Assembly (NCBI GenBank): GCA_003564185.1 | Contig: PXFS01000035.1 | Coordinates: 1-32,760, forward strand | DNA: 32,760 nucleotides | Source of the DNA: Flavobacteriaceae bacterium | GTDB lineage: Bacteria > Bacteroidota > Bacteroidia > Flavobacteriales > Flavobacteriaceae | Direction: 5' to 3' | In this document: piece by piece, positions 8,298 through 15,615 of the stretch | Numbering within the stretch: the stretch's first letter is position 1 | Layout of the letters: each line of letters begins with the position of its first letter | Translations under genes and position numbers: made by a program | The notes under the pieces: model-generated | Database searches by the model: none | Told to the model about the DNA's origin: nothing | What the model saw: only the letters and a program-made list of their open reading frames with translations

Positions 8298-8328
8298 TTT
8301 GTCAGAATGTATTTCTATCTTATATTTG
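8298..8328 (+). promoter_or_regulatory. Bacteroidota promoter of small-RNA unit 1
   Basis: A -33 TTTG (8298-8301) is followed after 19 bases by TATATTTG (8321-8328), a perfect match to the Bacteroidota housekeeping -7 consensus TAnnTTTG. The predicted start lies a few bases downstream, at the conserved block beginning 8331. Confidence 0.8.
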
Positions 8329-8330
8329 CA

Positions 8331-8403
8331 GTGGATGAAGTTTTTCATAATAGATTGGTTAATTAGCAAAACCCTTACCGCCTGGTAAGGGTTTTGTGTT
8401 TTT
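8331..8403 (+). ncRNA. Repeated small RNA candidate, copy 1
   Basis: The predicted transcript is about 73 nt. It starts with a 31-base block (8331-8361, beginning GTGGATGAAG and ending GATTGGTTA) that is identical in two further copies at 11723 and 15545. The block can fold as ATGAA-GTTT-TTCAT. It is followed by a short variable linker and a 12-bp terminator stem AAAACCCTTACC/GGTAAGGGTTTT (8368-8379, 8384-8395), then a T-run. Compared with the other copies, the A-U pair next to CCC is replaced there by G-C on both arms, a compensatory change supporting RNA structure. An alternative or additional reading is a 17-codon peptide from ATG 8335 to TAA 8388, MKFFIIDWLISKTLTAW. I do not recognise the family; it should be compared with known flavobacterial RNA motifs such as flavo-1. 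Confidence 0.75.
8368..8403 (+). terminator. Intrinsic terminator of small-RNA unit 1
   Basis: A 12-bp perfect stem (8368-8379 with 8384-8395) closed by a GCCT tetraloop is followed by TGTTTTT. It faces the minus-strand terminator at 8417-8454, so the two transcripts converge and both end here. Confidence 0.85.
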
Positions 8404-8416
8404 AATAGCTTATACT

Positions 8417-8454
8417 AAAAACAAAACTTGCTGGTTATTAAACCAACAAGTTTT
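8417..8454 (-). terminator. Intrinsic terminator of the 8479-11634 gene
   Basis: On the minus strand, AAAACTTGTTGGTT pairs with AACCAGCAAGTTTT (14 bp, one G-U, TAAT loop) and is followed by GTTTTT. It lies 25 bases after the stop codon of the choice-of-anchor L gene. Confidence 0.85.
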
Positions 8455-8478
8455 GACTATATAATTCTCAATTTCTAA

Positions 8479-11400
8479 TTATTTTTTTATCACTTTTTTA
8501 GTCACCCAATTGTTATTGACCAAAAGCTTCACAAAATACACTCCTGTTGTATAGTTAGTAAGGTCGATTTGCTTCAGCTGTTGGTTGGATTGAAATAATT
8601 TTTTTCCTTGTATGGAATATATTTCAATTTTTTGAATTTCAAATTGAGTTACTTGCTCTATGATCAATTTTCCAGAAGTTGGGTTAGGGTAGAGGCTAAA
8701 ACTATTTTCAAAATCAACTATAGAGAAAGTTTCACAATTAGGATCACCAAATTCGGTTACCTTAAGTTCAAAATTATCAATTGCAAAACATTCATTTAAA
8801 TCATCATTACGGCTAATTCTTGCCCATATAGTTTCTCCATCACTTAAATATTGGGTTGGTTTGATAATTGGATTAGTAAAGTTAAGCGCTCTACTTTCTG
8901 ATGTGAAATAATTGATTTGATAATCAGAAGCATTTTGGTCTTCACCAAGCACAATCTCATCATAATCACTCAAGTTAAAAGTGACTATATTAGACGTTTG
9001 CCCTTCTTCCTTGCAAACGTAAAAATCAACTAGAGGAAAAGTGCCTATCTTTACATTTTTTACATGAACATTAAAACTCACTAAATTAAAACACAATTCA
9101 CTTTGACTACTTTCTAAACGCACAAAGATTTTTGATTGATCAACGCCGTCCGGTAAACTGAAATTTTCTGGGTTTTGAATAGCGTTGGTTTTTGTTAACG
9201 CATCATTTCTTTCTTCATAATAGGTAGCTATGACTTCCGTTGGGTTTGCTGTACCTAAAGAGATGGCGTCATTAATGGTTAGATCAATATTTTCCTCTTC
9301 AGTGAATAAATTACATTCATCTAAGTGTTGTATATTTTCTTCTATTGCATCAGGACGTTGCGCAAAAGCTAATAGTACATCCATGCCAACAATAGTTGGA
9401 CATTTTGCTTCTCCAGATAAGGATTCATTAACCCTAACCCAAATAGTGGTAGGCTGCGTAACTTCATATTCTTCTGGGTTTCCAAGGGGGTTATTAAAGT
9501 CAATTGCATCTTCTTCACTTGTAAAGAAGTTTATTTCTAGACCTAAATCTTCAAGAGAATTCTGGTTTGAAGCAATTTCTCCACCTTGACCGTTATCATT
9601 TAAAAACGCAAAAGGATCAAGTTCTTCCATCAAGTTAATTTCAAAATTTCCATTTGGGTCACAGGCACAAATATTTTCAAAGGGATATTCAAATGAAGCA
9701 GTTGGTAAAAATTGAACTTGAATTTGATCACTTCCAACGCAAGCTTCACCGCCTTCAATGAAAACATCGTATAGTCCAGGCTCAAAAACATCAATAGATA
9801 ATTCATCGTTGAACTCGCTCAGTAATTCACCATCTTTTAACCATTCAACTTCTAAGTTGCAATTTTCACTTATTTCATTTTCGTAAATTGATAAATTTTG
9901 TGATTCCCCATAGCAGACTAAATTTTCATTACCTGGCACTAAATCATCACCTAGGTCAGCTCCAATGCCAAAAGATCCTCCTTCAATAAAGACAAAAGAA
10001 TCCATTATGGTGTCGTTCCAATCGCCTATAAGAAGCTTCATTTTGTAAGTTGTACAGGGGATAACTTCCGCATGTGCTGTTAAGGCTACTGTCTCACCTC
10101 CCATGTTATGGTAATCCGATGGTTGGTTACTGTAAAATTCAGGTAAGTAGAATTCTCCTAATCCTCCAATACCACAACTTGGATTATTATGAATATTTGT
10201 AGGAGTTGTTGGTACTGGATTACCGATTTCGTCGGGCACTGTGGCGATATTCAACCCGCCTAAGTTAGAGGCCAATAGGTCATCGTTAGGATTGGCATTA
10301 TGGTTGTATAAATACTCGTCTTGGTATACTCCTGGTGTACCGTCTTCAAAATCACCACCAATAAAATTGCCTTCTTCATCATAGGGTCCACTTATAATAA
10401 AGGCAAATACATCTGCAAAAGAACATACAAAGGAGGGATATTCATATGAAGCAAATATATAATTAAATGCTACTTCAGGTTCAAAAGAGCTAAATTCAAA
10501 GTCAATTGCACTTACGTCATTTACAGAGTTTGTTGGATTATTACCTGTTGCAATAGTAGCCAATAATTGTTCATTTGGACCACTACCAGATACAGATGCT
10601 TCTGACCATGCGTTCTCTGAAAATTGACCTAGAATATTTGGAATTCCACCACTACCAAGAACTACTCCTTCTTCAAACGGAAAATCACTACAGCCTTTAT
10701 TGAAATATCCTATACTAGTGCCTTCTGGCGACTGTATAGGAGAATTTACGTTATTTACATTAGCGCATGCTCCGCCACCAATCATAACTTCTGCAATTAG
10801 CTCCTCTAAGTTATAATGTGTGTTTTGGGTAGACAAACTCAATTGACCTTCATTTACTATAATATTAAATTCTAAGATTTCACTTGTACAAAAGCTATTG
10901 TTGGTGGCTATTATGCTTGCAGGCACATTTCCTAATTGATTAAGATTTAAATCTACAGTATTACCTTCAAATGAAGTGTTGCCAACTGTCCATTTATAAT
11001 TGAGTTCAGTATCAGAAGTCAAAAAACCATCAATCATTGAATTAGCTTGGAGTGTAAAATCTTCATCTTGTACAACTACAACATTATTGGCAAACTGACT
11101 TCCACAGGAGTCGTCATCTGCCAATGCTACAATTGGCATTATATTCGGACAGGCTTCATCACAGGTTATGTCCAAAGAAAAGCCAAATTCAGGAATCGGG
11201 AAACCAGGTACTGAATTAGCGTCTCCTGTCTTCAAGAGAATAGTTAAGCAGCCTTCTTCATTAGTTGCTGCAAGCCCTTCTGCAATTGAAGGTTCAGCAG
11301 GTGTAGAAAAGTCAAGTAATAGGTTTTCATCAACCTGTTCACCGTTATAAATTTCTAATGAAAATTCATTTGTTTGATCACTTATGGAAACCCAATTTAC

Positions 11401-11634
11401 ATTTATGTTTGAAAAATAAATCACTTCATTCTCATTTGAAGGGCAAATGGTAAGAATGAATTCTTTATTTTCAATATTTGTTATAGTGCTATTAAAAGCA
11501 CTTAGGTTACCAGTACACAATTCAATTTCATCATTTTCATCTAGCAAATTATCCTCTATAGCAAGTGGCCAGTCAATATTTTGTGCATGTAATTTTAGAC
11601 TTAAAATACAAAGTAGGAGTAATATCTTTTTCAT
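8479..11634 (-). CDS. Secreted choice-of-anchor L protein with T9SS type A sorting domain
   Basis: The 1,051-residue protein starts at ATG 11634 with a clear signal peptide (MKKILLLLCILSLKLHAQ). Residues about 20-160 are CUB-like (LEIYNGE, GCLTILLKTG) and about 165-265 Ig/PKD-like. The choice-of-anchor L region is about 280-560, with MIGGGACANV, YIFASYEYPSFVC, TPTNIHNN and IEGGSF. About 565-970 contains Ig-like and 100-residue repeats (NPENF, YFTSESRAL, IWARISR). The last 75 residues are a T9SS type A sorting domain beginning SLYPNPTSGKL, with IYSIQGK and TTGVYFVKL. It is predicted to be exported by Sec, secreted by T9SS and retained on the cell surface. It is a paralogue of the second half of the gene at 1-5017. 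Its binding target is unknown. Confidence 0.93.
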   Translation of the reverse strand: MKKILLLLCILSLKLHAQNIDWPLAIEDNLLDENDEIELCTGNLSAFNSTITNIENKEFILTICPSNENEVIYFSNINVNWVSISDQTNEFSLEIYNGEQVDENLLLDFSTPAEPSIAEGLAATNEEGCLTILLKTGDANSVPGFPIPEFGFSLDITCDEACPNIMPIVALADDDSCGSQFANNVVVVQDEDFTLQANSMIDGFLTSDTELNYKWTVGNTSFEGNTVDLNLNQLGNVPASIIATNNSFCTSEILEFNIIVNEGQLSLSTQNTHYNLEELIAEVMIGGGACANVNNVNSPIQSPEGTSIGYFNKGCSDFPFEEGVVLGSGGIPNILGQFSENAWSEASVSGSGPNEQLLATIATGNNPTNSVNDVSAIDFEFSSFEPEVAFNYIFASYEYPSFVCSFADVFAFIISGPYDEEGNFIGGDFEDGTPGVYQDEYLYNHNANPNDDLLASNLGGLNIATVPDEIGNPVPTTPTNIHNNPSCGIGGLGEFYLPEFYSNQPSDYHNMGGETVALTAHAEVIPCTTYKMKLLIGDWNDTIMDSFVFIEGGSFGIGADLGDDLVPGNENLVCYGESQNLSIYENEISENCNLEVEWLKDGELLSEFNDELSIDVFEPGLYDVFIEGGEACVGSDQIQVQFLPTASFEYPFENICACDPNGNFEINLMEELDPFAFLNDNGQGGEIASNQNSLEDLGLEINFFTSEEDAIDFNNPLGNPEEYEVTQPTTIWVRVNESLSGEAKCPTIVGMDVLLAFAQRPDAIEENIQHLDECNLFTEEENIDLTINDAISLGTANPTEVIATYYEERNDALTKTNAIQNPENFSLPDGVDQSKIFVRLESSQSELCFNLVSFNVHVKNVKIGTFPLVDFYVCKEEGQTSNIVTFNLSDYDEIVLGEDQNASDYQINYFTSESRALNFTNPIIKPTQYLSDGETIWARISRNDDLNECFAIDNFELKVTEFGDPNCETFSIVDFENSFSLYPNPTSGKLIIEQVTQFEIQKIEIYSIQGKKLFQSNQQLKQIDLTNYTTGVYFVKLLVNNNWVTKKVIKK

Positions 11635-11651
11635 AAGTATCTAATTTTCAG

Positions 11652-11659
11652 TAAATATA
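11652..11659 (-). promoter_or_regulatory. Possible -7 box for the 8479-11634 gene
   Basis: The minus strand reads TATATTTA, one mismatch from TAnnTTTG, with a predicted leader of about 14 bases before ATG 11634. No convincing -33 TTTG is present at the usual spacing. It is divergent from small-RNA unit 2. Confidence 0.3.
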
Positions 11660-11688
11660 ATTTATTTTTCTTTAAAACAGCTACTTTT

Positions 11689-11720
11689 TTTGGTCACAAT
11701 CTTATTTAATCTTATATTTA
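11689..11720 (+). promoter_or_regulatory. Promoter of small-RNA unit 2
   Basis: TTTG (11689-11692), 20 bases, then TATATTTA (11713-11720). The sequence TTTTTTTGGTCAC around the -33 box is shared with unit 3, so the promoter and not just the RNA body is repeated. Confidence 0.7.
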
Positions 11721-11722
11721 CA

Positions 11723-11794
11723 GTGGATGAAGTTTTTCATAATAGATTGGTTAGTTTGTAAAGCTCTTACCGCCTGGTAAGGGCTTTACTTTTT
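11723..11794 (+). ncRNA. Repeated small RNA candidate, copy 2
   Basis: The predicted transcript is about 72 nt. It begins with the same invariant 31-base block as copies 1 and 3 (11723-11753). The terminator stem is AAAGCTCTTACC/GGTAAGGGCTTT (11760-11771, 11776-11787): relative to copy 1 an A-U pair has become G-C on both arms, and one C-G pair has become a U-G wobble, so pairing is kept. An ATG at 11727 opens a 17-residue peptide, MKFFIIDWLVCKALTAW, whose TAA (11778-11780) falls inside the right arm of the hairpin. The unit lies immediately upstream of, and divergent from, the choice-of-anchor L gene starting at 11634. Confidence 0.75.
11760..11794 (+). terminator. Intrinsic terminator of small-RNA unit 2
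   Basis: A 12-bp stem with one U-G pair and a GCCT loop, then ACTTTTT (T-run 11790-11794). Confidence 0.8.
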
Positions 11795-12023
11795 AATGTA
11801 TTTAAGTTGACTCTAATAAATTGATTTCTGTAAAATTTTTTAATCAAATCGATTAATAATTTATAATTACAAATAGATATTTCTTAATTTTAGTATCATA
11901 TTTTATTCTAATTTAATGTAAGTTATTTAAATAAATGTGGAGTAATTTTACTTGTAAATTTAAAAAATACATACTTTTAAATTTTGGATTGAAACTAATC
12001 ACATAGATCCAATAATTTTATTA
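11795..12023. other. AT-rich gap with nothing recognisable
   Basis: Between small-RNA unit 2 and the 3' end of the BspA-like gene I see no open frame with a plausible start, no strong hairpin and no further copy of the repeated unit. Confidence 0.4.
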
Positions 12024-15000
12024 TCAGTCCATTTTTATTAGTTTATCTCTTACAACCTGACCACTACTTAGTGTAATGTTTAACCAATAAACACCTGATT
12101 TTAAATCTGTTAAATTTAGTCTTGTAGAGCTACTATTGATTTGACTATTTTTACTAAGTAACTTACCTTGTACATTATAAATGATAACATTTTCAATGAT
12201 ATCATAGCCCTTCAATGCACTTATAAATAAATAATTTTGACAAGGGTTTGGATACATTGAAATTATTTTTTTGGATTCAAAATCCTCAATAGAATAGGTT
12301 TCACAATCAGATCTTTGTGAATCACCAGCAATAGTCCAATTTTTTTGATTAATTAAAAAATCCCTAGATTCAACATTGCAAAACAATAAAGTAGCAGCAC
12401 CTAAATTTCTATTAGTCAAATTCACTTCGGAAAATGAAGATAACAAATTGTCATAATTTGTTGTCTGATATCCAGAAAAATTCAAAAAACCACCCAGGTT
12501 TACATTTGAATTGAAATTCCAATTGTCTAGCGGTTGATTAAAATTATTTGCTAATCTAAACATTTGACTCATATTTATTACTCCCTCAACATTCCAACTA
12601 TTTATATTTTGATTAAAATTTGATGCACCAGAGAACATTCTAAACATAGAATTTACTTGGCTAACATCCCAATTATTCAAAGGCTGATTAAAATTTGTAG
12701 CATTACGGAAAGAATCTTCCATAGTTATTACATTACTAACATCCCATTCATTTATTGGTTGATTAAAGCTGGTGGTGTTCTTAAACATTGATTTCATATT
12801 TACCAAGTTTGACAGATTAAAATTGTTCAACTGACCATTAAAATTAGTTGCATCTTCAAACATTGACTCCATTGTTGTTACCTGCTCTGTATTCCAATCG
12901 TTTAAGTCCTGATTAAAACTTGTAGCACCTTTGAACATGAAAAACATGTTTTCTGCACTATTAGTGTTCCAGTTTCAAATAGGATGATTAAAGCTAATAG
13001 CATCTTCAAATGCACTTTGGAAGTTTTTAACCTGAGAAACCACCCAACCTGACATATCAAAATTTACAAGTGGGGCATTTTTGAAAATTTCTCTCATACT
13101 TTCAACTTGTTGTAGATTTGGAATATCTGTTGCATTAATTATTAGTTGGTTAGCGTTTTCAAAGCTTTTTCTAAAACTTTTCCATTGTATATTTCCCCAT
13201 TGTTCAACTGATAGAAGTTTTTGAATATTATTACTTTGTTGATTAGTTTCAGGTAAAATGGCAAAATGCGAATATTCAGAAAATATACGCACTTCATATA
13301 TTCCAGCTTCTTCGTAGGTGTGTAAAGTATCATCTTGCTGACTTAAATTTGAGCTAATATTACCATCTCCCCAATCTACAATAAAATCATACGTAAAGGA
13401 ATTAGAAGTTGGAATAGTAATGCTTAAATCAGAGCCCTCTACTTGCCAAGTAGTAATAAACGCATTTTCTGTACATTCAATTAGTCCTAAAGAATCGTTT
13501 AGAATTTCAACATTATTTTCATTGATTAGAATATCTCGGTTTGTACTGTCACAGTAAATTAAGCCATTGTTATTTAAAGTAACATCAGAGATGCCTTGTT
13601 CAACAAAAGTTGATAATAACAGTTCATAATTATCTACATCTAATCCAGAATTTCTAAAAAGATTTGTTGGATTTAAAACTGATTCAAAGTTCCATTGATC
13701 TAAAGGCTGGTTAAAACTTGATGCATTATGAAAGAAATTATTCATATTTTCCAGACTAAGTTGCCAACTATTTATTGGCTGATTAAAAGAAGTAGCATTA
13801 AAAAACATAAGAGAAGCTGAAACTGCATTTTCTAAGTTCCAATTATTTATGTTTTGATTAAATGAAATAGCCCCATAGAACATACTATTTAAACCAATTA
13901 CGCTAGATACGTCCCAATTGTTTAGTGGTTGATTAAAAGATTCTGCTAAACGAAATGTAGAATTCATTATCAAAATATTAGATACATCCCAATTTTCTAT
14001 GCTTTGGTTAAAAGCTAAAGCTCCATCAAAAGCAGATCCTAAGCTAGTTGTATTGCTAATATCCCAGTTACTAATCTGCCCATTAAAGTTTTCTGCATCT
14101 TTAAAAATGCTACTTATTTGAGTAGCATTAGAAGTGTTCCAATCATTAAGGTCTTGGTTAAAGTTAGTTGCACCTTCAAACATTCGTCTAAAATCTGTAA
14201 CATTAGATACATCCCATCCATTCAATTCTTGATTAAAACTTGATGCATTTCTAAAAATACTTGCCAAATTGTTGACCCCAGAAACATCCCAGTTATTTAA
14301 AGGTTGGTTAAAGTTTTCTGCGTCTGTAAACATCTCATTCATGTTAGTGACATTTGATACATCCCAGTTATGGATGTTTTGATTAAAGCTACTTGCATTT
14401 CTGAAGGCTCTTGATAATGAATTAACATTGGAAACGTCCCATTGGTCTAATGGTTGATTAAAGTTAGTTGCACCATCAAAAATACCCGACATTGAAGTCA
14501 CATTACTAACATCCCAATGATTAATGTTTGCATTCATTTGCGAACCCCTAAAAAGATCAAAAAAACTTGTAACACTTTCTAAATTTGGAGCTTCATTTTC
14601 AGGTAAAGTAATATCCTGTGTAAATTGAAAATTTCCTAAAACCGAATTCCACTCAATATCTCCCCATTGTTTTACTTCTAGAATTTTTTGATTTTGACCT
14701 TGTACACCAGGAAGGTAAGCGCTAAATTGTCCCCAAATTTTAATGTCATAAGTTCCGCCATTTTCATAAGTATGTGTGCTAGTTGAAGTAAGTGCTGGCG
14801 AAAATGTATCATCACCCCAGTCAACAGTGTACATGTCATTAGATTGATAGGTGTTTGAAACATTGAAACCAATTTCGTCACCAGCATCTACTTCAAAAGT
14901 CAATATAAACGGCTCCATATCAGGTGTTAAAATTCCATTCTTATAAAATTTCATGTCAGAATTAAAAGGGCCGCCGCAACTTAAATTAACGTCTTCGAAA

Positions 15001-15413
15001 TAATTTAAAACCAATATATCATCTTCAAAATTAATATAAGGTTCGTTCTCAATTGCTGTATCTATAACTACATCAATATCAAAATTTTGGCAAGAAATTT
15101 CATAATTAAATTCATCATTGAGTTTGAGTTCATTATCACTTAAATCAATAATAATGTCTTTTGCTTCCCAGCTTACAAAATCAGCTCCATTAATACTGAT
15201 TTTTCTTAAATTAGGTTGGTCTGGAACATTTTCAACCTCAACTATTTGACTAGGTATTACTGATTCACCACTTGTACCTAAAGTAAAATTTTCATGTTCT
15301 AAATAATACACACCAGTAAAAAAGCTTGAATGGATAGATTCATCTTGAGCAGATAAAAATAAAGTGTTAAAAAATAACACAGCTAAAAGGCAGAATCTCA
15401 TAATCGAATTCAT
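12024..15413 (-). pseudogene. BspA-like (DUF285) T9SS surface protein interrupted by an in-frame TGA
   Basis: A single frame from ATG 15413 to the stop at 12024 would encode about 1,129 residues but contains one TGA (12975-12977) after residue 812. The layout is two super-modules. Each has a PKD-like domain (VDWGDD about 200-225; VDWGDG about 680-700), an array of 25-residue repeats (FNQPLxxWDVSNVxxMxxxFxxAxx) and a cap with an 'NYxxLLSxFxE' segment. A signal peptide opens the protein (LLAVLFFNTLFLSAQ), and a T9SS type A sorting domain (SMYPNPCQNYL, LKSGVYWLN) closes it, beyond the stop. Around the stop the repeat reads FNHPI-stop-NWNT, where sister repeats have N, D, E, H or S. A Ser TCA to TGA change would explain it. 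The truncated product lacks the sorting tail and could not be anchored. Sequencing error is possible. Confidence 0.85.
12975..15413 (-). CDS. N-terminal fragment (812 aa) of the interrupted BspA-like protein
   Basis: This is the part translated before the TGA: the signal peptide, first PKD-like domain, twelve 25-residue repeats, the cap, the second PKD-like domain and the first repeats of the second array. Repeats of this type (bacterial surface protein 25/26-residue repeat, DUF285) are leucine-rich-repeat-like and are usually found in adhesive surface proteins. Without the C-terminal sorting domain, T9SS export is not expected. The remaining 3' part stays open in the same frame; its first internal ATG is at 12947. 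Confidence 0.7.
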   Translation of the reverse strand: MNSIMRFCLLAVLFFNTLFLSAQDESIHSSFFTGVYYLEHENFTLGTSGESVIPSQIVEVENVPDQPNLRKISINGADFVSWEAKDIIIDLSDNELKLNDEFNYEISCQNFDIDVVIDTAIENEPYINFEDDILVLNYFEDVNLSCGGPFNSDMKFYKNGILTPDMEPFILTFEVDAGDEIGFNVSNTYQSNDMYTVDWGDDTFSPALTSTSTHTYENGGTYDIKIWGQFSAYLPGVQGQNQKILEVKQWGDIEWNSVLGNFQFTQDITLPENEAPNLESVTSFFDLFRGSQMNANINHWDVSNVTSMSGIFDGATNFNQPLDQWDVSNVNSLSRAFRNASSFNQNIHNWDVSNVTNMNEMFTDAENFNQPLNNWDVSGVNNLASIFRNASSFNQELNGWDVSNVTDFRRMFEGATNFNQDLNDWNTSNATQISSIFKDAENFNGQISNWDISNTTSLGSAFDGALAFNQSIENWDVSNILIMNSTFRLAESFNQPLNNWDVSSVIGLNSMFYGAISFNQNINNWNLENAVSASLMFFNATSFNQPINSWQLSLENMNNFFHNASSFNQPLDQWNFESVLNPTNLFRNSGLDVDNYELLLSTFVEQGISDVTLNNNGLIYCDSTNRDILINENNVEILNDSLGLIECTENAFITTWQVEGSDLSITIPTSNSFTYDFIVDWGDGNISSNLSQQDDTLHTYEEAGIYEVRIFSEYSHFAILPETNQQSNNIQKLLSVEQWGNIQWKSFRKSFENANQLIINATDIPNLQQVESMREIFKNAPLVNFDMSGWVVSQVKNFQSAFEDAISFNHPI

Positions 15414-15444
15414 TTTTATGAATAAATAATGTCAATTAATGTAT

Positions 15445-15476
15445 GAAATATATTTGAAACAGAATTTTAAGTCAAA
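15445..15476 (-). promoter_or_regulatory. Promoter of the BspA-like gene
   Basis: The minus strand has TTTG (15476-15473), 20 bases, then TATATTTC (15452-15445), one mismatch from TAnnTTTG. The predicted leader is about 28 bases before ATG 15413. The spacing equals that of small-RNA units 2 and 3. Confidence 0.55.
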
Positions 15477-15510
15477 GGAAGTTTAATTTTATAAAAATTA
15501 TTGTTTTTTT

Positions 15511-15542
15511 TTTGGTCACTATCTAAATCTGTCTTACATTTA
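15511..15542 (+). promoter_or_regulatory. Promoter of small-RNA unit 3
   Basis: TTTG (15511-15514), 20 bases, then TACATTTA (15535-15542). It shares the poly-T plus TTTGGTCAC context with unit 2. Confidence 0.65.
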
Positions 15543-15544
15543 TA

Positions 15545-15615
15545 GTGGATGAAGTTTTTCATAATAGATTGGTTAGTTGTAAAGCCCTTACCGCCTGGTA
15601 AGGGCTTTGCTTTTT
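15545..15615 (+). ncRNA. Repeated small RNA candidate, copy 3
   Basis: The predicted transcript is about 71 nt with the invariant 31-base block (15545-15575) and the terminator stem AAAGCCCTTACC/GGTAAGGGCTTT (15581-15592, 15597-15608), fully paired. The linker is one base shorter than in copy 2. That base loss shifts the small open frame starting at ATG 15549, so the peptide end seen in copies 1 and 2 (LTAW) is lost while the RNA structure is intact. This favours RNA over peptide as the conserved product. The unit is divergent from the BspA-like gene starting at 15413. Confidence 0.75.
15581..15615 (+). terminator. Intrinsic terminator of small-RNA unit 3
   Basis: A perfect 12-bp stem with GCCT loop followed by GCTTTTT (T-run 15611-15615). 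Confidence 0.85.

Follow-up and report, generated by a model that had tools for sequence, protein, structure and literature searches.

A candidate multicopy small RNA family of the Psychroflexus group, with a likely ancestral site beside luxE and tyrS in other Flavobacteriaceae

What are the three short, closely similar units that lie among surface-protein genes on a flavobacterial contig, each with what looks like its own promoter and terminator? The window analysed here is a stretch of 32,760 nucleotides (nt) of contig PXFS01000035.1 (assembly GCA_003564185.1, Flavobacteriaceae bacterium), from a genome of the Psychroflexus group that is called the host genome below. Flavobacteriaceae are a large environmental family whose surface proteins are secreted by the type IX system; to our knowledge, their small RNAs have been little studied. 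An earlier note on the window had proposed a multicopy small RNA. Our comparative analysis leads us to think that the units probably encode a dispersed, paralogous, trans-acting small RNA, ancestrally controlled by an extracytoplasmic function (ECF) sigma factor at a luxE-tyrS site, which in Psychroflexus has been multiplied and placed mostly behind housekeeping promoters. The family would be of an ordinary kind, a small RNA, yet it is apparently undescribed; the comparative evidence is unusually clear and the history of the family seems traceable.

All three units are on the plus strand, and each was read by script as TTTG, spacer, a -7 box of the form TAnnTTTG/A, block, linker, stem, loop and T run. 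The putative promoter of copy 1 spans 8298-8328 (TTTG at 8298-8301, a 19-nt spacer, and TATATTTG at 8321-8328); it is followed by the invariant block, the seed candidate, at 8331-8361, and by a predicted intrinsic terminator at 8366-8403, with stem arms at 8366-8379 and 8384-8397, a GCCT loop at 8380-8383 and a T tail. Copy 2 has its promoter at 11689-11720 (TTTG at 11689-11692, a 20-nt spacer, TATATTTA at 11713-11720), its block at 11723-11753 and its terminator at 11758-11794 (stem 11758-11771/11776-11789, GCCT loop, T tail). The corresponding positions in copy 3 are 15511-15542 for the promoter (TTTG at 15511-15514, a 20-nt spacer, TACATTTA at 15535-15542), 15545-15575 for the block and 15579-15615 for the terminator (stem 15579-15592/15597-15610, GCCT loop, T tail). 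The blocks were delimited by sequence identity among the copies. These coordinates agree with those of the earlier note, as does the 31-nt block GTGGATGAAGTTTTTCATAATAGATTGGTTA, identical in 3/3 copies, which extends to 32 nt because the preceding A is common too. Linkers between block and stem measure 3-4 nt, and each 14-bp stem closes on a GCCT loop and is followed by a T run. The A-U pair of the copy 1 stem that is G-C in copies 2 and 3, and the U-G wobble in copy 2, had been correctly described.

Promoter, spacing (19, 20 and 20 nt) and terminator are kept while the surroundings differ, as the earlier note had claimed; beyond the promoter-block-terminator unit, the flanks of the three copies do not align with one another. 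An unbiased repeat search of the window returned this 105-nt, three-copy family as the first of three families. The folding energy of each copy was better than that of 200/200 shuffles (z scores of -4.25, -3.79 and -4.63), and in the predicted folds a 28-nt invariant stretch is mostly unpaired.

We then asked how many copies exist and where. At up to 3 mismatches the host genome holds the block five times, against none for the reversed control, and a covariance model (R2) that we made from 13 units added a sixth copy (L063), which has one extra T in its T run; three further R2 matches in this genome (E values of 0.03 to 0.46) were left uncounted. What had been described as a three-copy family has six copies in its own genome. 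A 28-nt core, allowing up to 3 mismatches, was present in 20 of 119 genomes, all from the genus group (20/27 inside, 0/92 outside), and five genomes in this search carried tandem pairs of units 139-216 bp apart. Exact core matches in a collection of named genomes came from 22 stretches titled Psychroflexus, Mesohalobacter, or unnamed Flavobacteriaceae or Bacteroidia isolates or metagenome-assembled genomes (MAGs). R2 units were found in 26/27 genus-group genomes, at 1 to 6 copies each, and in 23/23 of those at least 90% complete; the sole genome lacking a match is only 52% complete. Contigs are broken within or beside a unit at the starts of L004, L021 and L035 and near the end of L056, and fragmented genomes may therefore hold more copies than were counted. 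In 299 Flavobacteriaceae genomes, R2 matched 29 at E values up to 0.01, of which 27 lie outside the genus, and the homologous units that the earlier note had anticipated were found both in the genus group and in other genera. A broader model, R3, matched 337/395 flavobacterial genomes at E values up to 0.001; in the host genome it also scored apparent other terminators at 37-39 bits, and for this reason no distribution claim rests on it.

Units that are dispersed, multicopy and intergenic, and that turn up at contig ends where assemblies broke (L004, L021, L035), could also be a mobile repeat resembling a miniature inverted-repeat transposable element and spread by transposition. We give this explanation next to no credence. 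A mobile element was rejected on the unit boundaries in the window, where homology is confined to promoter, block and terminator and the flanks are not common; terminator sequences diverge strongly from copy to copy and the block stays the same, each of the 26 matched genus genomes holds just one to six copies, and one site is common to several genera. The earlier note had raised a longer mobile repeat with unconserved promoter and terminator as the contrary outcome; what we found favours a small RNA. The window units are better described, from their sequences, as paralogues: dispersed copies of what is probably one RNA gene.

The two halves of the unit are constrained in different ways. The genus set comprises 64 units (66 matches, from which two from outside the genus were dropped). 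Their cores fall into 33 exact copies with five Ts, 20 exact copies with six Ts and 11 that deviate. Across 66 aligned rows of terminator stems (64 distinct), 97.1% of cells hold standard pairs and 240 double-sided changes were counted; the covariation score was 0.770, where shuffles gave 0.240 and sliding one arm gave no more than 0.181. A smaller alignment of 41 rows gave 97.1% paired cells, 144 double-sided changes and a score of 0.728. The stem alignments were fitted to the model and are thus biased towards structure, and related copies are counted repeatedly; despite this, the covariation effect in these alignments is far beyond the controls. The block is thus conserved almost to the letter, and of the terminator just the structure is kept. 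The most widely conserved piece is UUGGUUAGUU, next to the terminator. A 5' hairpin was suggested in several units from outside the genus (z below -1.5 in 12/22) and was not found in six genus units tested.

A block this constant might instead encode a very small peptide (MKFFIIDWL...), the unit being a tiny mRNA. All 33 exact five-T copies do read ATG AAG TTT TTC ATA ATA GAT TGG TTA, the frame runs uninterrupted from a start codon in 5/22 units from other genera, and two of these loci (L070 and L077) read (M/V)KFFILDWLVSC. The difference between five and six Ts, however, breaks the reading frame between copies and makes a peptide unlikely: 20 of the 64 genus units, those with the extra T, read MKFFHNRLVS-stop. 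Almost every copy has different residues past the block, a TGA falls inside the block in one copy, three (L016, L237, L238) lack its ATG, and in 17/22 other-genus units the frame lacks a start codon within 45 nt. In exact cores, moreover, third codon positions vary no more than the first two. Taken together, these features make a coding function highly improbable.

We next considered the promoters. Among the 64 genus units, 55 have a TAnnTT[TC][GA] box just upstream of the core, 7 have only an ECF-like box pair and 1 has neither; the remaining unit lies too near a contig end for a promoter test, leaving 63 testable. The exact box TAnnTTTG was found just upstream of the core in 50/63, where shuffled upstream regions led us to expect 2.1, and the looser box in 55/63, where 7.7 were expected. 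In a scan of 35 units, 29 matched at least 5/6 box letters, 22 of these with a suitably spaced TTG element as well. Most genus units carry such sigma-A-type boxes, and an ECF-like promoter is still seen in a few (L019, L022, L034, L213). At the level of sequence, the units show the features by which small RNA genes are recognised: a promoter of their own, an intrinsic terminator, a position outside coding genes, and one common core in several dispersed copies that vary elsewhere.

Outside the genus, many units seem to share a neighbourhood. Within the 3-kb locus, 18 of the 27 non-genus matches have a LuxE-family gene and/or tyrS (names from Pfam); in a comparison set of 30 loci fetched by a short motif, 2 had TyrS, one of them already among the 27. 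Among the nine other loci are a tandem array (L076), members of the second sRNA-like class described below, and a likely chance match (L073). In the array, at 1199-2011 on the minus strand of L076, four tandem short-variant units (ATTGGTTAGTT plus terminator) occupy about 800 bases in a genome of another genus. The luxE-tyrS neighbourhood also holds genus copies (for example L010, L019, L023 and L215-L218), which makes it the likely ancestral site.

Upstream of the units at this site is a pattern resembling an ECF promoter, TGTA[AC]-N16-18-CG[TA]C, present in 15/18 LuxE/TyrS-adjacent non-genus loci and 0/9 of the others; the 12 of the 27 without it are L069, L070, L073, L074, L076, L080, L086, L087 and L090-L093. 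In a set of 22 non-genus units chosen for a LuxE or TyrS neighbour (17 from R2 matches and 5 from the R3 search), 18 had the pattern, against 0.03 expected from shuffles. Random windows gave 1/2453 for the 27-locus set and 10 hits in 2200 draws for the 22-unit set, where draws near the unit were not counted as hits. Left out of the 22 were L068 (a near copy of L067), L099, L100, L115 and L127 (places already used, or that of L068), and L103 and L135, both with TyrS. The pattern was set after the upstream sequences had been viewed and its count is therefore descriptive; its -35 part is our own reading. A CGT box at -10 marks the ECF-type SM6 promoters of Flavobacterium psychrophilum (PMC9723704). 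We infer that the promoter changed from ECF to sigma-A type in the Psychroflexus group, a direction based on the distribution of the two types and not on a tree.

Other copies have other neighbours. Many Psychroflexus species carry one between ogt and the gene for a 1134-aa protein, the host genome and P. maritimus have one between ychF and gpx, and a further site lies beside an M42 peptidase gene. The window copies sit among genes for type IX-secreted surface proteins and a gene with a 5'-nucleotidase domain; copy 1 shares its neighbours with one MAG (L041) and copy 3 with P. maritimus (L056). The earlier note had placed each unit upstream of a gene for an exported protein and pointing away from it, which is accurate in the window and does not extend to copies elsewhere, whose neighbours are tyrS, luxE, ychF/gpx and ogt. 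Linkage to surface-protein genes as a general feature was rejected on the same grounds, since other copies lie by tyrS, by luxE or the M42 peptidase gene, by ychF-gpx, and by ogt and the 1134-aa protein gene.

Several copies are placed between convergent genes, and a hairpin follows the unit in 36/36 complete units examined (in L009 and L024 the script chose a poorer stem than the G+C-rich one that is visible). Both observations would suit units that are merely cis-acting terminators or insulators between genes, with the block as part of that function. A terminator, however, needs neither a promoter nor a fixed block of 28 nt ahead of it; the promoter has been retained or swapped for one of another type, and the minus-strand gene beside copy 1 has, by eye, its own hairpin at about 8423-8455. 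We regard a purely cis-acting role as very unlikely. The near-fixed core, covarying terminator, own promoter and conserved site are best fitted by the multicopy small RNA of roughly 70-75 nt that the earlier note had envisaged.

We propose the following model. Each unit would be a gene, with a promoter of its own, for a noncoding small RNA about 70-75 nt long whose 5' end lies a few bases ahead of the invariant block and whose 3' end is at the intrinsic terminator. The copies would be dispersed paralogues of an RNA gene that sits between a LuxE-family gene and tyrS in other Flavobacteriaceae, for the most part under an ECF-sigma-type promoter. Within the Psychroflexus group a housekeeping (sigma-A) promoter would mostly have taken the place of that one, and the gene would have multiplied, to as many as six copies in one genome, with its core nearly unchanged. 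Action in trans is the most likely mode: the accessible core (...UUUUUCAUAAUAGAUUGGUUAGUU) would base-pair with mRNAs, probably across start codons in a context of the AUUAUGAAAAA type, and lower their translation. Several promoters would then supply one shared seed. In this model the limits of the unit, the conserved core, the covarying terminator, the promoter types, the synteny and the paralogy come directly from the comparison, whereas transcription, transcript length, pairing, the type of target and the part played by an ECF sigma factor are inferred. A likely ancestral site, a recognisable ECF promoter, a natural promoter change and up to six copies offer a concrete entry point, and raise the questions of what part the single-site RNA plays in envelope stress and for what reason a single genus multiplied it and gave it housekeeping promoters.

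As to the pairing part of this model, the core holds UUUUUCAUAAU, complementary to AUUAUGAAAAA, a natural start-codon context. We predicted pairing with 556 genes sampled from two genomes, covering about 13% of either, with shuffled cores as controls. Start-region pairing was not enriched, with 52% of genes at or below -10 kcal/mol for the core and 52% for shuffles. Start regions paired more weakly than internal windows, a contrast matched by 9/60 shuffles. Genes with signal-peptide-like starts made up 30% of both the top 30 and the top 60, compared with 27% of all; the best pairs are thus not richer in them, and envelope targets are not favoured. A suggestive signal came from the extreme tail alone: 3 start regions reached -21.5 kcal/mol or lower, where the shuffle mean was 0.61 and 9/300 shuffles did as well. 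At -20 kcal/mol there were 4, equalled by 29/300 shuffles, and at milder cut-offs the observed number was reached by 29 to 102 of 300; the single best pairing value was reached by 17/300. The strongest candidate target, a putative lipoprotein gene of G009, was found in 6/27 genus genomes. Four of its orthologues have predicted pairing energies of -21.4 (G013), -19.4 (G014), -16.3 (G000) and -10.4 kcal/mol (G018), those in G014, G000 and G018 being distant relatives at 25-29% identity; the G010 orthologue appears, by eye only, to be TTG-started with no clear pairing site. For the second candidate target gene, a search of the other 26 genus genomes gave no match.

A search for known partner proteins was negative in the genus group. 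Hfq was not found in 13 genomes by a search that was positive in 5/14 control genomes, E. coli included, and the RRM_1 domain (PF00076) was found in 0/9 Psychroflexus-group genomes, two of them incomplete; across 13 genomes one was positive for RRM_1, Bacteroides ihuae. Neither was found in G000-G008 (two incomplete), even though these genomes strongly conserve what appears to be a small RNA of the seed type. There is thus no known chaperone partner.

These results bear on another explanation, in which the noncoding RNA binds an RNA-binding protein or some other factor and does not pair with mRNAs, its many copies raising the dose of a decoy. The most widely conserved piece, UUGGUUAGUU, adjoins the terminator, and variants of it precede terminators in at least two other classes resembling small RNAs but with different 5' parts, as a protein-docking element might; the lack of overall enrichment of start-region pairing points the same way. 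Set against this, the invariant stretch in Psychroflexus measures 28 nt, which exceeds a typical protein site, and the predicted folds of the window copies leave most of it unpaired. There is no known candidate protein; Hfq and RRM_1 were not found in the genus genomes tested. We consider protein binding unlikely, and a trans-acting, base-pairing RNA still the better account.

Is the family already known under another name? No Rfam family matched the window, or the units themselves, at curated thresholds, and weak matches around the units (E up to 5) were all far below family cut-offs. The flavo-1 motif, a Flavobacteriaceae RNA listed in Rfam (PMC9723704), had no match in the window at its curated threshold nor around the units at E values up to 5. 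A description of this small RNA family was not present among the literature matches listed, a search that left most subscription papers outside. The suggestion in the earlier note that the family may be undescribed is consistent with these searches of Rfam, flavo-1 included, and of the literature.

By architecture, the nearest known system appears to be FopS of Bacteroides thetaiotaomicron. FopS comprises 14 paralogous small RNAs of about 65-70 nt, 9/14 of them intergenic, which repress translation initiation of outer-membrane, SusC-like proteins with RbpB, an RRM-1 protein, as partner (PMC11697453). Both families are multicopy, with a single-stranded conserved 5' stretch, then an intrinsic terminator, and promoters of housekeeping type. 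FopS differs in belonging to Bacteroidaceae, in its 14 copies and in its RbpB partner, whereas the nine Psychroflexus-group genomes tested lacked a detected RRM_1, and, outside the genus, the window family is marked by a luxE-tyrS site and an ECF-type promoter. The units are not shown to be FopS members, as no Rfam family matched them (whether the Rfam copy used holds a FopS model was not checked) and an RRM_1 partner was not found. If they pair with mRNAs at all, their mode of action would be like that of FopS. The LhrC, Qrr and OmrA/B families each have several gene copies with a common core, and several are tied to known RNA chaperones. They are named as sibling small RNA families in the description of FopS (PMC11697453). 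Like the window family they are able to respond through different promoters; they differ in belonging to other phyla.

Two RNAs of F. psychrophilum also invite comparison. Rfp11, which is THC0290_N_0107 of strain OSU THCO2-90, is an independent small RNA, conserved in other species and with strong predicted structure, transcribed from an SM6 promoter that its authors assign to an ECF-type sigma factor with CGT at -10 (PMC9723704). The ECF-type promoter is a likeness that, in the window family, belongs to the non-genus units (15/27 loci, all among the 18 with a LuxE/TyrS neighbour; 18/22 chosen units), sigma-A-type boxes having mostly replaced it in the genus. We would guess that Rfp11 may be an orthologue of the luxE-tyrS RNA, a comparison made by description only. 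Rfp18 is conserved outside its species and linked to secreted-protease expression (PMC9723704). Its pairing region is described there as a third stem-loop, whereas the genus units have a single strong hairpin.

Variants of the 3' piece TTGGTTGGTTAGTTAG precede terminators in at least two other classes resembling small RNAs, with different 5' parts. The pattern GRTTGGTTAGTTAGT was found in 76/199 genomes, and its reversed control in 8/199. Among sites fetched with this pattern, 19/30 had a terminator by a set criterion, compared with 25/3000 random windows; of the 11 misses, 3 have a hairpin by eye (L132, L135, L148), 4 belong to another repeated element (L125, L133, L134, L139) and 4 have none (L136, L137, L140, L146).

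The second class consists of a AAGGGGTGGTTCCCTT hairpin followed by ...GGTTTTTCATAATTTAAAGTTTGGTTGGTTATTTAGG and a terminator, with the match centred near position 1500 of its loci (L104, L105, L107, L108, L112, L114, L116, L117 and L092). DUF3108 is a neighbour at 9/9 of these loci, and HPPD-like and tryptophan 2,3-dioxygenase genes at 7/9 each; the two loci scanned against Rfam (L104 and L112) gave no match. The third class begins with GAGTGGTTACTTTAAAC... or close variants and has the 3' end TTGGTTGGTTAGTTAGT plus terminator, again with the match near 1500 (L120-L124, L128, L130, L131, L141, L143 and L144); DUF819 and peptidase M15 (D-ala-D-ala dipeptidase) genes are neighbours at 9/15 loci each. 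For both classes, one protein per cluster of neighbours was named by Pfam.

These patterns suggest that the 3' piece is a shared module, and perhaps a protein-docking site. Counting the luxE-tyrS RNA, the tryptophan dioxygenase/HPPD-like/DUF3108 RNA and the DUF819/D-ala-D-ala dipeptidase RNA, it is conceivable, though we hold it doubtful, that Flavobacteriaceae possess a module, UUGGUUGGUUAGUUAG or a close variant with an immediate terminator, that is common to several unrelated small RNAs and docks a chaperone replacing Hfq; the window family would then be its multicopy branch, shifted out of ECF stress control and into constitutive expression.

Two minor observations remain. GGTTGGTTAGTTAGT also lies within a conserved stretch, GACAGTTTGGAATAAAGTCCTGATATGGGAAG...AGCCCTTCCC, near position 1500 of L125, L133, L134 and L139, from four genomes of different genera; it is possibly another structured RNA, and the three loci scanned (L125, L133 and L139) had no Rfam match. 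In the window itself, on the minus strand at 12024-15413, open reading frames of 812 and 307 aa resemble a single surface protein with DUF285, which we take to be BspA-like, a PKD domain and a type IX sorting tail. An in-frame TGA near 12975 interrupts this DUF285-type protein, possibly by mutation, recoding or sequencing error.

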